Source: Halosimplex litoreum (GTDB lineage Archaea; Halobacteriota; Halobacteria; Halobacteriales; Haloarculaceae). From it: 64,000 nt of DNA. The stretch covers positions 3,223,836 to 3,287,835 of the forward strand of contig NZ_CP065856.1 in the NCBI RefSeq assembly GCF_016065055.1. The letters are read 5' to 3'. The notes under the pieces are model-generated. The model did not search any database. It had not been told where the DNA came from and saw nothing but the letters and a program-made list of their open reading frames with translations. Shown here in pieces: positions 3,428-54,817 of the stretch. Position 1 is the stretch's first letter. Every line of letters begins with the position of its first letter. Position numbers and translations under genes: made by a program.

Positions 3428-4231
3428 ATGAGTCTCGAACGCAAAGACGAACACGACCACGACGGCTGGATGGAGAGCCGTGACCTCACGGCTATCGAAG
3501 AGATCTACCTCACGGTGTTGCTGTGGCTCGACCGACGGCTGCGTATCGTCGACTATCTGGAGATCCTCGAGAACATGTACTACAAGGTTAACTTCCAGAT
3601 GCCCAAGAGCCACACCGAACAGTACAACCTGGACAACAAGTTCTGGTACTGGTACCCCCTCTACGCGTTAGGGTCGTTCTCGACGATCGCGTACGTCGTC
3701 GCGGCGATATCGGGTGCGCTGCTGGGGTTCTACTACGCGCCGGGTGCCGGGGCCTCCAACGGGACGCCCGCGCTCGCGTACAACTCCATCACCTTCATCA
3801 TGACCGAGCTGAACTTCGGTTTCTTCCTCCGGTCGCTACACCGGTGGTCGGCGCAGGTGATGGTCGCGGCCGTGTTCCTACACATGCTGCGGGTGTACTT
3901 CACGGGCGCGTACAAGGAGCCGCGCGAACTCAACTGGATCATCGGCATCGTGCTCATCTCGCTGACGATGGTCTTCGGGTACACGGGCTACCTGCTCCCG
4001 TGGGACCAGCTGGCCTTCTGGGCCGGCCAGATCGGCGTCGAGATGAGCCTCTCTATCCCGCTGATCGGCGAGTGGGTGGCCCAGCTGCTGTTCGGCGGGT
4101 TCACCCTGAGTCAGTCGACGGTCCAGCGGATGTACATCCTGCACGTGTTCGTGCTCCCGTTCGTCACGACCGGGATCATCGCCGTGCACATCGGCATCGT
4201 CTGGATGCAGGGCATCGCGGAACCCCACTGA
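3428..4231 (+). CDS. petB: Cytochrome b, N-terminal half (heme-binding subunit)
   Basis: 267 residues with four main transmembrane helices. The b-heme ligands are His138 and His152 (13 residues between) and His239 and His254 (14 residues between). The H-x14-H spacing in helix D is typical of b6-type rather than mitochondrial b proteins, and the split into two genes is also b6f-like. The protein has no cysteine at all, so it cannot bind the covalent extra heme (heme cn) of b6f complexes. The N-terminus has about 75 residues before helix A. The C-terminal half is encoded 4 bases downstream. Confidence 0.95.
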   Translation: MSLERKDEHDHDGWMESRDLTAIEEIYLTVLLWLDRRLRIVDYLEILENMYYKVNFQMPKSHTEQYNLDNKFWYWYPLYALGSFSTIAYVVAAISGALLGFYYAPGAGASNGTPALAYNSITFIMTELNFGFFLRSLHRWSAQVMVAAVFLHMLRVYFTGAYKEPRELNWIIGIVLISLTMVFGYTGYLLPWDQLAFWAGQIGVEMSLSIPLIGEWVAQLLFGGFTLSQSTVQRMYILHVFVLPFVTTGIIAVHIGIVWMQGIAEPH

Positions 4232-5685: not shown

Positions 5686-5984
5686 CCGCGAGTCTCCTCC
5701 TCGGTTCGTCCACCACCGCGTAGCGACCGCGTCGTTCGCGTCTCCTCGAACTACCGGCTTCTTTCCTCTGTTCGGCTCTCACTTCGACACGTCCACTCTG
5801 GCGTGCGAGTTGAGGGTTGGTTTCTGGTCGGTGTGGAAGGAAGTCCGCCGATAGCGACCGCACTCATCGGGGACAGCAAGCGATGAAAGCCCTCGACGCG
5901 CTCGCGGTCGCTGAGGCGGGATATTCTCCGTCGCTTCGCTCCCTCGAATAGTGCCCGCTCAGGCGACCACGCAAGCGCGAGCAG

Positions 5985-6007
5985 GGCGGTCGGCTCCGCC
6001 GACCGCC
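5985..6007. repeat. Inverted repeat, 10-bp arms
   Basis: GGCGGTCGGC and its complement are separated by TCC, giving a very stable GC stem-loop in DNA or RNA. It lies 7 bases before a second hairpin (6014-6034). Confidence 0.7.
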
Positions 6008-6013
6008 GCAAGC

Positions 6014-6034
6014 CGTGGCGGCTTCGCCGCCACG
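6014..6034. repeat. Inverted repeat, 9-bp arms
   Basis: CGTGGCGGC and its complement flank a TTC loop. Together with the hairpin at 5985-6007 it forms a paired stem-loop unit. Confidence 0.7.
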
Positions 6035-6272
6035 CGCGCCTCGCCCTTTCAGTCCTCCAAGGAACCGCACAGCACCGCACAGCGCCACACACCTCCCCAG
6101 TCGACTCACTCGGTCGCTCCGCTCGCTCGTTCGTCCCTCGCACGGCTTGGACTCGCGACCCTCGCAGTGCTCGGGCACGCTCGCCAGCGCGCGCCACCGC
6201 AATCGCTCAATCTATCGCCTGTACTGACCGATTTCGGAAGACGATTTCGAGGGAAAGTAGGAAAGAGCGGCC

Positions 6273-35668: not shown

Positions 35669-36493
35669 TCAGCTCCGCAGCTTCTCGATGCGCTTCTCCA
35701 TCGGCGGGTGGGTCGCGAACAGCCGCGCGAGGCCGCGCTCCTCGCCGAAGATGCACAGCGCGTTGACCTGCTCGTCGACCGCCGACTCGCTGGCGCGCTC
35801 GTTGCCCCGGCTGATCTTCTCCAGCGCACGCGCGAGCGGCTCGCCCGAGCCGATGGCGCCCGCGGCGTCGCTGTCGGCGACGTACTCGCGGTACCGCGAG
35901 ATGGCCATCACGAACAGCATGACGAGCATCTGGACGACCTGGCCGACGACGATGGCCAGGAAGAAGTCGGCGATCTCGTTGTCGCCGGTCAGCAGGACGA
36001 CCCACTGGGCGACGATAGCGACGATGGAGGCGATCCCCTGTCCGAGCACCATCATCACCACGTCACGGTTCGCGATGTGGGCCAGTTCGTGTGCGAGCAC
36101 GCCCTCGACCTCGTCGGCGTCGAGCGTCGCGAGCAGTTCCCGCGAGACCACGACCGTCCCGGCGCCCTTCCGCCCGACCGCGAAGGCGTTGGGCACGCCC
36201 ATCCGGGCGATCATGAGCCGGGGCTTGTCGATGCCCATCTCCTCGGAGAGTGCCTCGACCTGCCGATGGATCTCCGCGTACTGCTCCTCGGGCATGTCTT
36301 CGGCCCCGACGCTCCGGATCGCGGCCCACTTGCCGATCTTGTACTGGACCCCCACGAACAGGACGCTCCCGACCAGGACCAGCCACAGCGGGACCGAGAA
36401 CGCGCCCATCGCCACGACCGCGGCGACGGCGTAGAACGCGAACAGGATCGATCCAACGACCGCCATCCGCGCGGTGAGACTCGGGTGACGCAT
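35669..36493 (-). CDS. htpX: Protease HtpX
   Basis: 274 residues from ATG 36493 (MRHPSLTARM). Two N-terminal helices, HELAH zinc motif (VLAHELAHIANRD), two more helices, then the third ligand in YREYVADSDAAG. Typical HtpX length and layout. It removes damaged membrane proteins from the cytoplasmic face. It is the second M48 protease in this window (the other is at 11085-12146), and closer to the standard HtpX type. Confidence 0.92.
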   Translation of the reverse strand: MRHPSLTARMAVVGSILFAFYAVAAVVAMGAFSVPLWLVLVGSVLFVGVQYKIGKWAAIRSVGAEDMPEEQYAEIHRQVEALSEEMGIDKPRLMIARMGVPNAFAVGRKGAGTVVVSRELLATLDADEVEGVLAHELAHIANRDVVMMVLGQGIASIVAIVAQWVVLLTGDNEIADFFLAIVVGQVVQMLVMLFVMAISRYREYVADSDAAGAIGSGEPLARALEKISRGNERASESAVDEQVNALCIFGEERGLARLFATHPPMEKRIEKLRS

Positions 36494-36634
36494 ACGTGAC
36501 GTGTTCCCGTCCCGACGCCTCAAGAACCCTCCGCTTGTCGTCGGTCGACTGCGAAGTCGACGCTCGCGGACGTACTCTATCACTGACGGGTGTCTCAGGA
36601 GATTCTCCGGGTCACGATAGCAAGCACACGCGAA

Positions 36635-36688
36635 GCGGTGCTCGCCGTGTCGTTCGCGGCAAAACCATAGCGGGAGGTAGATTTGAAC
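36635..36688. repeat. 54-bp direct repeat copy A, ends in tRNA-iMet 3' part
   Basis: Identical over 54 bases to 36790-36843 (offset 155). The last 22 bases (36667-36688) equal 36968-36989, the 3' end of the initiator tRNA (T arm and acceptor half) plus one flanking base. This is the part of tRNA genes usually used as att sites by archaeal integrases. Confidence 0.85.
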
Positions 36689-36789
36689 TACGTCCAGACG
36701 TGCTCGCTCACTTCGTTCGCTGCGCACGACTCGCCTACTTCAAATCTCTTCGACTCTGGTTGCCGCTCATGCTGGCTCGCACACGCTTC

Positions 36790-36843
36790 GCGGTGCTCGC
36801 CGTGTCGTTCGCGGCAAAACCATAGCGGGAGGTAGATTTGAAC
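36790..36843. repeat. 54-bp direct repeat copy B, ends in tRNA-iMet 3' part
   Basis: Second copy of the repeat at 36635-36688. Bases 36822-36843 match the tRNA 3' end. Just after it an inverted copy (36890-36902) of its last 13 bases appears. Confidence 0.85.
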
Positions 36844-36968
36844 CGGAGGCAGACGGTCGCCTCACTGCGTTCGACGCTGCGACTGCCAGGGTTCAAATCT
36901 ACTCGAGTATTTCGAGGAAACAGGCTCACTCGTCGCTACGCTCCTCGTTCGCGTTGGTTCCTCGAAAA

Positions 36969-37043
36969 TAGCGGGAGGTAGATTTGAACTACCGATCTGC
37001 GGGTTATGAGCCCGCCGGAATCTCCTGGCTATCCCATCCCGCT
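36969..37043 (-). tRNA. Initiator tRNA-Met (CAU)
   Basis: 75 nt. Acceptor arms AGCGGGA and TCCCGCT pair, with A73 next; anticodon CAT is at 37006-37008; the anticodon stem has the GGG/CCC pairs (GCGGG-CTCATAA-CCCGC) and position 1 is A paired with T72, both marks of archaeal initiator tRNA. T arm GGTAGTTCAAATCTACC is complete. No CCA is encoded. Its 3' end is repeated twice downstream (36667-36688, 36822-36843). Confidence 0.93.
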
Positions 37044-37112
37044 ACCAGTTTGTACCGGCGACCACCCATTAAGGGTTGTGATTCGTTCGCCGTCCGTGAA
37101 TTAGTCCCGCGG

Positions 37113-37613
37113 TCAGGTCTCGTGGACCTGCCAGGTGAACAGGCTCTCGAAGACGTAGTTGACGAACATCGCGACGCCGATCGCGAGCGGGCTCGCGAGC
37201 AGGAACCACAGGTCCGTCTCGAAGACGACGACGGTCACGTCCAGCCGCTGGGTCAGGTACCAGTAGATGCCGAACTGGATGAGCGACCCGCCCGAGCGGA
37301 CCAGGTGTGATTTGCCCAGCCGATGCAGGAACGCCCTCGACCCGGGTTCCCCCTCGTCGGCGAACGTCCAGTGCTCGTTCACCGCGAACATCACCAGGAT
37401 GGCGGTCTCGATCCCGATCGCCTTTGCGACCAGTTCCGGAACGCCGAACCCCAGACCGAGCAGCGCGAGCATCGCGTTGTCGGCGACCGCACCGACCGCG
37501 CCGACGGAGACGAACTTGCCGAACCGCACGCCCGAGAGCAGCGCGTCGATCCGGGAGTCGTCGCTCCCCTCCAGGCTCGTCTCGCCCGTTCCGTCGACGT
37601 TCCCGTCAGTCAT
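37113..37613 (-). CDS. GtrA family membrane protein
   Basis: 166 residues. After an acidic N-terminal 20 residues there are four helices typical of GtrA: RFGKFVSVGAVGAVADNAMLALL, AILVMFAVNEHWTFAD, GSLIQFGIYWYLTQ and a last helix FVNYVFESLFTWQ. GtrA proteins are thought to flip undecaprenyl or dolichyl phosphate-linked sugars. It overlaps by eight bases the glycosyltransferase gene transcribed just before it. Confidence 0.88.
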   Translation of the reverse strand: MTDGNVDGTGETSLEGSDDSRIDALLSGVRFGKFVSVGAVGAVADNAMLALLGLGFGVPELVAKAIGIETAILVMFAVNEHWTFADEGEPGSRAFLHRLGKSHLVRSGGSLIQFGIYWYLTQRLDVTVVVFETDLWFLLASPLAIGVAMFVNYVFESLFTWQVHET

Positions 37614-49469: not shown

Positions 49470-49554
49470 GTCGTGGTAGCCAAGCCTGGCCCAAGGCGCA
49501 GGGTTGCTAACTCTGTGGCGTACAGCCTCCGGGGTTCGAATCCCCGCCACGACG
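49470..49554 (+). tRNA. tRNA-Ser (GCU)
   Basis: 85 nt with a long variable arm. Acceptor arms GTCGTGG and CCACGAC, discriminator G; anticodon GCT at 49506-49508; T arm CCGGGGTTCGAATCCCCG. No CCA encoded. It is 22 bases before rps13 and is likely co-transcribed with it. Confidence 0.95.
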
Positions 49555-49576
49555 CTCACACCCGAATCACAGACAC

Positions 49577-51954: not shown

Positions 51955-52039
51955 GCAGGGATAGCCAAGTCAGGCCAACGGCGCAGCGTTCAGGGCGCTG
52001 TCCCGTAGGGGTCCGCAGGTTCAAATCCTGCTCCCTGCA
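51955..52039 (+). tRNA. tRNA-Leu (CAG)
   Basis: 85 nt. Acceptor arms GCAGGGA and TCCCTGC, discriminator A; anticodon CAG at 51991-51993; long variable arm and T arm GCAGGTTCAAATCCTGC. It precedes rpl18e by 18 bases, the arrangement known for Haloarcula. Confidence 0.95.
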
Positions 52040-52057
52040 CTTTTCTAGGAGAAACGT

Positions 52058-53615: not shown

Positions 53616-54817
53616 CGCTCGTCACCGACGTGCGGCTGCGCCGCGTGCTCGACTCGCGGGGCAACGCCACCGTCGAGGCCGACGTGCTGACCGAGGAGGG
53701 CGGCTTCGGTCGCGCAGCCGCACCGAGCGGCGCCTCCACCGGCGAGTACGAGGCCATCGAGCTGCCGGCCGCCGAGGCCATCGCGAAGGCTCGCGAGGAC
53801 GCGATCCCCCGACTCGTCGGGGAAGTCCACGCGGGCAACCAGCGCGAGGTCGACGCGGCGCTGGCTGCCGCCGACGGCACCGACGACTTCTCGGGTATCG
53901 GCGCCAACAGCGCGGTCGCCATCTCGATGGCCGCCGCGAAGGCCGGTGCCAGCGTGACCGGCGCCCCCCTCTACCAGCACCTCGGTGGGACCTTCCGCGG
54001 GAACACGTTCCCGATCCCGCTGGGCAACATCGTCGGCGGGGGCGAACACGCCGCCGACGCGACGGACATCCAGGAGTTCCTCGCGGCGCCCGTCGGGGCG
54101 CCCTCCGTGTCGGAGGCGATCTTCGCCAACGCCGCGGTCCACGGGAAAGTCCACGACATCCTCGTGGACCGTGACGAGCCCGCGGGCAAGGGCGACGAGG
54201 GCGCGTGGGCACCGTCGATCGACGACGCCGAGGCCTTCGAGATCGTCGACGAGGCGACCACGGCCGTCGCCGACGAGGTCGGCTTCGAGATCCGCTTCGG
54301 CCTGGACGTGGCCGCCGCGGAGATGTACGACGAGGACGAGGGCGGCTACGTCTACTCCGACACGGTGCGCTCCACCGAGGAGCAGGTCGAGTACATCGCC
54401 GACCTCGTTCGCGAGTACGACCTGAAGTACGTCGAGGACCCCCTCGACGAGGACGACTACGAGGGCTTCGCGGACCTGACCGAGCAGGTCGGCGACCGGA
54501 CCCTGGTCTGTGGCGACGACCTGTTCGTGACCAACACCGACCGGCTGGGCGACGGTATCCAGCAGGGTGCGGCCAACAGCATCCTGATCAAGCCCAACCA
54601 GATCGGGACGCTGTCGGACGCGTTCGACGCCATCGAGCTGGCCGTCGAGAACGCCTACGGCCACGTGGTCTCACATCGGAGCGGCGAGACCGAGGACGCC
54701 ACCATCGCACACCTCGCAGTCGCGACGGACGCGCCGTTCATCAAGACGGGCGCGGTCGCGGGCGAGCGCACTGCCAAGCTGAACGAACTCATCCGAATCG
54801 AGGACAACGCAGTATGA
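53612..54817 (+). CDS. eno: Enolase (phosphopyruvate hydratase)
   Basis: 401 residues. It has [13 protein letters not shown], the metal-binding and catalytic region ([22 protein letters not shown]), the lysine loop [13 protein letters not shown] and [18 protein letters not shown]. It converts 2-phosphoglycerate to phosphoenolpyruvate in the cytoplasm. Being in the ribosomal operon is the standard haloarchaeal order. It overlaps rpoK and rps2 by four bases each. Confidence 0.97.

Follow-up and report, generated by a model that had tools for sequence, protein, structure and literature searches.

A hairpin array repeating the 3′ end of the initiator tRNA gene in Halosimplex litoreum, and its possible place in a haloarchaeal family of palindromic repeats

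In Haloferax, for instance upstream of 5S rRNA, tRNase Z processes tRNA-like sequences known as t-elements. Casposons, the Cas1-solo transposons, insert at the 3′ ends of tRNA genes with a target duplication of 14-15 bp that leaves the tRNA intact (PMC6977970), and the archaeal elements that integrate into tRNA genes by means of a tyrosine recombinase include the SSV, pNOB8 and SNJ2 types (PMC8371274). Here we describe an array of tRNA 3′ ends ('tails') behind the initiator tRNA-Met gene (iMet) of Halosimplex litoreum, in a 64-kb window (the whole stretch of DNA analysed, 64,000 nucleotides) of the 4.16-Mb chromosome of this haloarchaeon. Such tail arrays have traits in common with REP elements, with casposon insertions and with the layout of CRISPR, and lack a defining feature of each. 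No description of them was found in the open-access literature searched, subscription papers lying outside the search.

The original prediction was of a 22-mer from the tRNA 3′ end, ATAGCGGGAGGTAGATTTGAAC, present three times (36667-36688, 36822-36843 and, within the tRNA itself, 36968-36989), and of an identical 54-bp repeat at a spacing of 155 bp. Both were confirmed. The 54-bp exact match is included in a 77-nt repeat of 90% identity (36612-36688 versus 36767-36843), and the outer copy matches the tRNA over 25 nt at 100% (36667-36691 and 36968-36992). The predicted inverted repeats are likewise real, pairing at 13/13 (36832-36844 with 36890-36902), 12/13 (36910-36922 with 36955-36967) and 11/12 positions (36679-36690 with 36736-36747); the point missed was that they are copies of the T-loop half of the tRNA. 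On the minus strand, the order 3′ of the tRNA is hairpin A1, hairpin B1, copy 1, A2, B2, copy 2 and A3 (Table 1). Each hairpin B overlaps a tail copy, its basal stem being an inverted T-loop half paired with the direct copy.

Perfect stems of at least 12 bp with loops of up to 100 nt occur at two places only in the 64 kb, the iMet array and 53630-53723, and the array stretch folds much more stably than its shuffles do (z = −7.35). An Rfam scan of 36000-37600 returned nothing but the tRNA. The Ser-GCT and Leu-CAG tRNA genes of the window (49470-49555 and 51955-52040) carry no tail array.

Table 1. Features of the array behind the initiator tRNA-Met gene, in window coordinates.
Feature	Position	Strand	Evidence
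Initiator tRNA-Met gene, whose tail is repeated	36968..37044	-	ARAGORN; Rfam RF00005, 58.5 bits
tRNA 3′ end that recurs: T-loop to discriminator base plus flank	36968..36992	-	Direct repeat family D2
Hairpin A1, beginning directly after the tRNA; 13-bp arms, 12 paired	36910..36967	-	Inverted repeat I4; hairpin A stems in 78/162 segments versus 3/162 shuffled
Hairpin B1	36832..36902	-	I1, 13/13; model R1, 77.1 bits; covariation
Parts of B1: inverted T-loop half; conserved core with AGTCG/CGTCT; direct T-loop half	36890-36902; core; 36832-36844		
First tail copy (copy 1), T-loop to discriminator base, identical at 20/20 positions	36822..36843	-	
Hairpin A2 (TGGTTTTGCCGC ... GCGGCAACCA)	36757..36821	-	Sequence; 81% homologous to unit 1 of genome G003
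Hairpin B2, with inverted (36736-36747) and direct (36679-36690) T-loop halves on either side of the core	36679..36748	-	I5; R1, 69.1 bits
Second tail copy (copy 2), matching the tRNA at 25/25 positions	36667..36691	-	D2
Hairpin A3, terminal remnant: starts as A2, then diverges; array ends there	36612..36666	-	D1, 77-nt repeat, 90%

Units of about 100-155 bp in general run from hairpin A through hairpin B to the tRNA-specific acceptor, and the tail copy spans the T-loop through the discriminator base of the host tRNA. There are two kinds: class I units contain the whole T-loop, as in the iMet array, and class II units a 13-nt T-stem/acceptor part that follows a simple hairpin. Among 114 distinct B hairpins, 94% of the pairs were formed, and 230 cells were altered on both sides versus 73 ± 6 in shuffles, a signal that was lost when the partner was slid. 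The sequence of the inner helix varies while its pairing is kept (one pair reads CG 49, GC 37, UA 13 and AU 9 times), and AGTCG/CGTCT with its T·T mismatch is nearly invariant. The left arm matches the T-loop variant of the adjoining tRNA. As in t-elements, a piece of the acceptor/T half is repeated outside the tRNA; unlike them, hairpin B has no paired acceptor, its pairing ending about three bases into the T stem and leaving the acceptor copy unpaired. A paired acceptor (minihelix) was tried and rejected, pairing past the first three T-stem bases being at control level.

Such strong and conserved pairing around an invariant mismatch would suit a functional RNA, that is, structured tRNA trailers serving as terminators, processing decoys or tRNA-refolding regulators, with selection holding the tail identical. 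The units always lie on the tRNA strand and directly downstream, the proximal tails are strictly identical, and in the minimum-energy fold predicted for read-through RNA the 5′ acceptor strand of the tRNA pairs with copy 1. However, the stems appear to avoid G·U. In hairpin B, G·T and A·C mismatches are equal (13:13) outside two T-loop columns, and hairpin A, whose segments paired far more often than shuffled ones (Table 1), has 5 G·T and 3 A·C among 623 pairs. This lack of a G·T excess favours a DNA-level process over selection on RNA; the balance of mismatches suggests that the pairing takes place in DNA, or in any case does not support selection on RNA. Arrays are, moreover, missing behind more than half of the tRNAs, close relatives vary and show clean empty sites, and distal copies decay. 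We therefore regard a functional RNA as an unlikely explanation.

The array is not peculiar to iMet. Within 700 nt downstream, a strict copy of the gene's own tail follows 19 of the 46 tRNA genes of the H. litoreum genome (G000), the rate for mismatched tRNA/flank pairs being 1.5%, and no own-tail copy lies upstream of any of the 46. Across four genomes, such downstream copies follow 19/46, 24/41, 21/58 and 8/40 tRNAs, with mismatched-pair controls of 0.6-3.1%; the upstream control is valid for G000 only, the other stretches mostly having little upstream DNA, and mismatched pairs serve as the control there. A covariance model of hairpin B (R1), built from 15 class I hairpins of G000, gave 25 matches in that genome at E<1e-5, all behind tRNAs except for one, which follows a 9.2-kb element inserted in tRNA-Ile, and up to 34 per genome elsewhere. 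It matched 102 of 117 Halobacteriales genomes (43 of 49 genera); in a phylum-wide sample, 22 of the 24 Halobacteriales matched and none of the 124 genomes outside that order did. The best R1 loci in genomes other than G000 were all (29/29) directly behind a tRNA on the same strand. Exact duplication of the iMet tail at a distance of 90-118 nt was present in 44 genome records, all haloarchaeal, from genera that include Haloferax, Halorubrum, Haloarcula, Natrinema, Halococcus, Halorhabdus and Natrialba.

At the loci studied, hairpin-B units stand behind 30 tRNA species, and similar units accompany different tRNAs of a single genome, each with its own tail. Such pairs range from 78 to 97% identity: Gly-CCC and Ser-GGA share 97% over 78 nt, the iMet and Gly-GCC units of genome G003 share 83% over 139 nt, and Lys-TTT and Arg-CCT of genome G100 behave alike. 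In all intact copies the tail is that of the host tRNA, whereas the transfer of a single integrase cassette from one tRNA to another would yield chimeric tRNAs.

Orthologous loci differ by whole units, with the junction exactly at the tRNA boundary. Behind tRNA-Val(TAC), G000 has a 129-bp unit, and in G003 the same flank (94.6% identical) directly follows the tRNA. The site is also empty in G001, G002 and G005; by a genus tree that is built on a single gene and weakly supported, the difference is more simply read as a gain in the G000 lineage. At iMet, unit 2 of G000 corresponds to unit 1 of G003 (81%), and at Leu(TAA) unit 2 corresponds to unit 1 of G006 (93%). Two Haloferax gibbonsii strains have a second iMet gene on related plasmids, which share the distal flank and differ in their single unit; the sequences look as though a different unit of one ancestral array had survived in each. 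Array composition thus differs among species and between H. gibbonsii strains, which excludes an identical array everywhere with no copies elsewhere. The two megaplasmids, pHG2 (locus coordinates about 5800-6100) and pHGLR2 (about 3800-4050), both carry a full iMet gene followed by a tail array of its own; neither site has a feature in the PLSDB gene table, from which RNA genes are absent.

Arrays are also polarized. Among those with at least two units, the proximal tail was better preserved in 15 and the distal tail in 1 (p=5e-4), and in four unselected genomes, leaving out the 44 loci picked for exact duplication, the ratio was 10:1 (p=0.012). Perfect tandem amplification occurs directly behind tRNA-Leu(GAG) (166 bp, 4.8 copies, 99%; locus coordinates 681-1475 on the locus strand) and behind tRNA-Gly(TCC) (74 bp, 3.2 copies, 98%; locus coordinates 1679-1914), where the unit is a class II tail. 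These recent amplifications, together with left arms that track the local T-loop variant, are what would be expected if the arrays were local tandem duplications only, produced independently at each tRNA when replication slipped and switched template at an end prone to hairpins, giving direct and inverted copies in place. However, the core between the arms is conserved in sequence and structure throughout the 43 matching genera, which independent local events cannot give, and adjacent units of one array are often different, as are A1 and A2 at iMet. As a general explanation local duplication is quite improbable, and it is unlikely for class I units.

Like REP/BIME elements and MITEs, the tail units are short, non-coding and palindromic, are present in many copies per genome, have a conserved stem mismatch and spread between loci; unlike them, they are confined to tRNA 3′ ends, and their outer arms and flanking duplication copy a particular host tRNA. 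With CRISPR arrays they share a repeat-spacer layout beside a leader, here the tRNA, with perfect proximal copies and degenerate distal repeats. However, the repeats of a tail array are locus-specific tRNA tails, its 'spacers' share conserved hairpins, and it has no dependence on Cas. Casposons resemble the units in inserting at the tRNA 3′ end with a target duplication and an intact tRNA, and differ in that the tail-unit duplication (20-25 bp) is longer and otherwise placed, inside the tRNA, and that the unit is gene-free. Insertion by a Cas1-type enzyme (a casposase or CRISPR adaptation) or by an HUH Y1 transposase, with target-site duplication at tRNA 3′ ends, would account for growth beside the leader, the duplicated end and distal decay, and the target choice of casposases lends it a precedent. 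The distribution of the genes argues against it: Cas1 has no match in G000 and is found in 36 of the 117 Halobacteriales, versus 102 with units, and Y1_Tnp, the RAYT/Y1 transposase feature of REP/BIME elements, occurs in 61 of the 117 and is missing from the unit-rich genomes G041 (24 matches), G038 (19) and G020 (9). Neither enzyme is required, both are largely refuted as general agents, and insertion of this type is very improbable.

Two origins had been proposed for the iMet repeats, a scar of past integrations and a mobile non-coding repeat. The second is supported by units that stand behind many haloarchaeal tRNAs, are near-identical across them and are gained or lost whole; the first fits poorly. 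On the integration reading, the units would be integrase-mediated scars or miniature integrative elements (attL-attR remnants), with the tRNA T-loop and acceptor as attachment site. Direct repeats from T-loop to 3′ end are indeed the classical tRNA attachment segment, and the junctions of the units lie exactly at the tRNA 3′ end. As in SSV-, pNOB8- and SNJ2-type elements, a tRNA 3′ segment stands on both sides of the insert, the tail repeats being 20-25 bp; unlike these elements, the units have no integrase and no room for genes, their inserts (about 110 nt) have conserved hairpins, and one core occurs at many tRNAs with their own tails.

A true integrative element is present in the same genome. 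The 9.2-kb element in tRNA-Ile(GAT) (G000:C1:907900-918300) carries on its distal side 27 nt copied from the end of the tRNA and encodes a 336-aa tyrosine recombinase with weak matches to PF00589 and PF02899. Its attachment end, the one such end examined, has no hairpin B. A hairpin A+B unit lies beyond the distal att copy, displaced to the far side, and therefore pre-dates the element. Autonomous integrative elements, as judged from this one and from viral contigs and phages, do not share their attachment arms with the tail units. As predicted, the window has no integrase; the six Phage_integrase genes of G000 all lie elsewhere, five of them far from any array. Hairpin B was absent from the viral contigs and phage records searched, and no free copy was found. 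A viral origin was also considered and rejected: in viral contigs the left-half pattern matched nothing but two coding sequences, both unrelated, and it matched no phage record. A cassette moving between tRNAs by integration would, furthermore, swap their 3′ ends, and each unit has the tail of its own tRNA. Integrase scars are accordingly doubtful as the source of the arrays.

Taken together, the observed architecture, tRNA-specificity, spread, hairpin B pairing, proximal preservation, and presence or absence of entire units exactly at the tRNA boundary suggest that the iMet array is one case of a haloarchaeal family of palindromic non-coding repeats, whose units would be inserted at tRNA 3′ ends, where the tail is duplicated, and lost when tails recombine with one another; we give this a probability of about 0.5. 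A new unit would join between the tRNA and the existing array, duplicating 20-25 bp of tail and leaving the tRNA intact. Hairpin cores would pass from one tRNA locus to another, either copied in a transposition-like manner or through ectopic gene conversion, the outer arms presumably always adopting the local tRNA sequence. Recombination between the direct repeats of 20-25 bp would remove units, and the distal copies would decay. Host homologous recombination and a XerA-type recombinase, both ubiquitous, may be the agents. Against this family of added and pruned units, no enzyme is tied to the units, and the searches found neither a free copy nor one in a virus or phage record. Repeats of 20 bp readily lose the unit between them by slippage, and some 'gains' may be losses elsewhere; ancient arrays may have exchanged sequence by gene conversion, which could explain the core likeness between loci; and the strict identity of proximal tails could reflect selection.

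A bolder form of this explanation, possible but less likely than not, is that a dedicated haloarchaeal activity adds palindromic DNA units at tRNA 3′ ends, duplicating the segment from T-loop to discriminator and matching the outer arm to the target tRNA, which would result in polarized, CRISPR-like arrays of own tails. If the explanation is right, the tRNA genes of a whole archaeal class bear a dynamic and seemingly undescribed repeat system, in which the order of insertions is naturally preserved at many tRNA genes. A search for a new activity of DNA insertion or recombination would then have a well-defined starting point, in organisms as easy to grow as Haloferax, and annotators would have reason not to take every copy of a tRNA tail for what a lost virus left behind.

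Some loci stand apart from the arrays described above. A weak R1 match (E=0.009) at G000:C1:1070458-1070534 has an AGTCGC/ACGTCT core with other palindromes around it and no known tRNA nearby. Dense clusters of extra tRNAs, probably belonging to a virus-like element and apparently without tail arrays, are located at G006:C1:2778976-2780654 and G003:C1:5114186-5116692. At G000:C1:1443430-1443506, a unit lies behind what seems to be a tRNA with an intron, one missing from the output of the Rfam scan.
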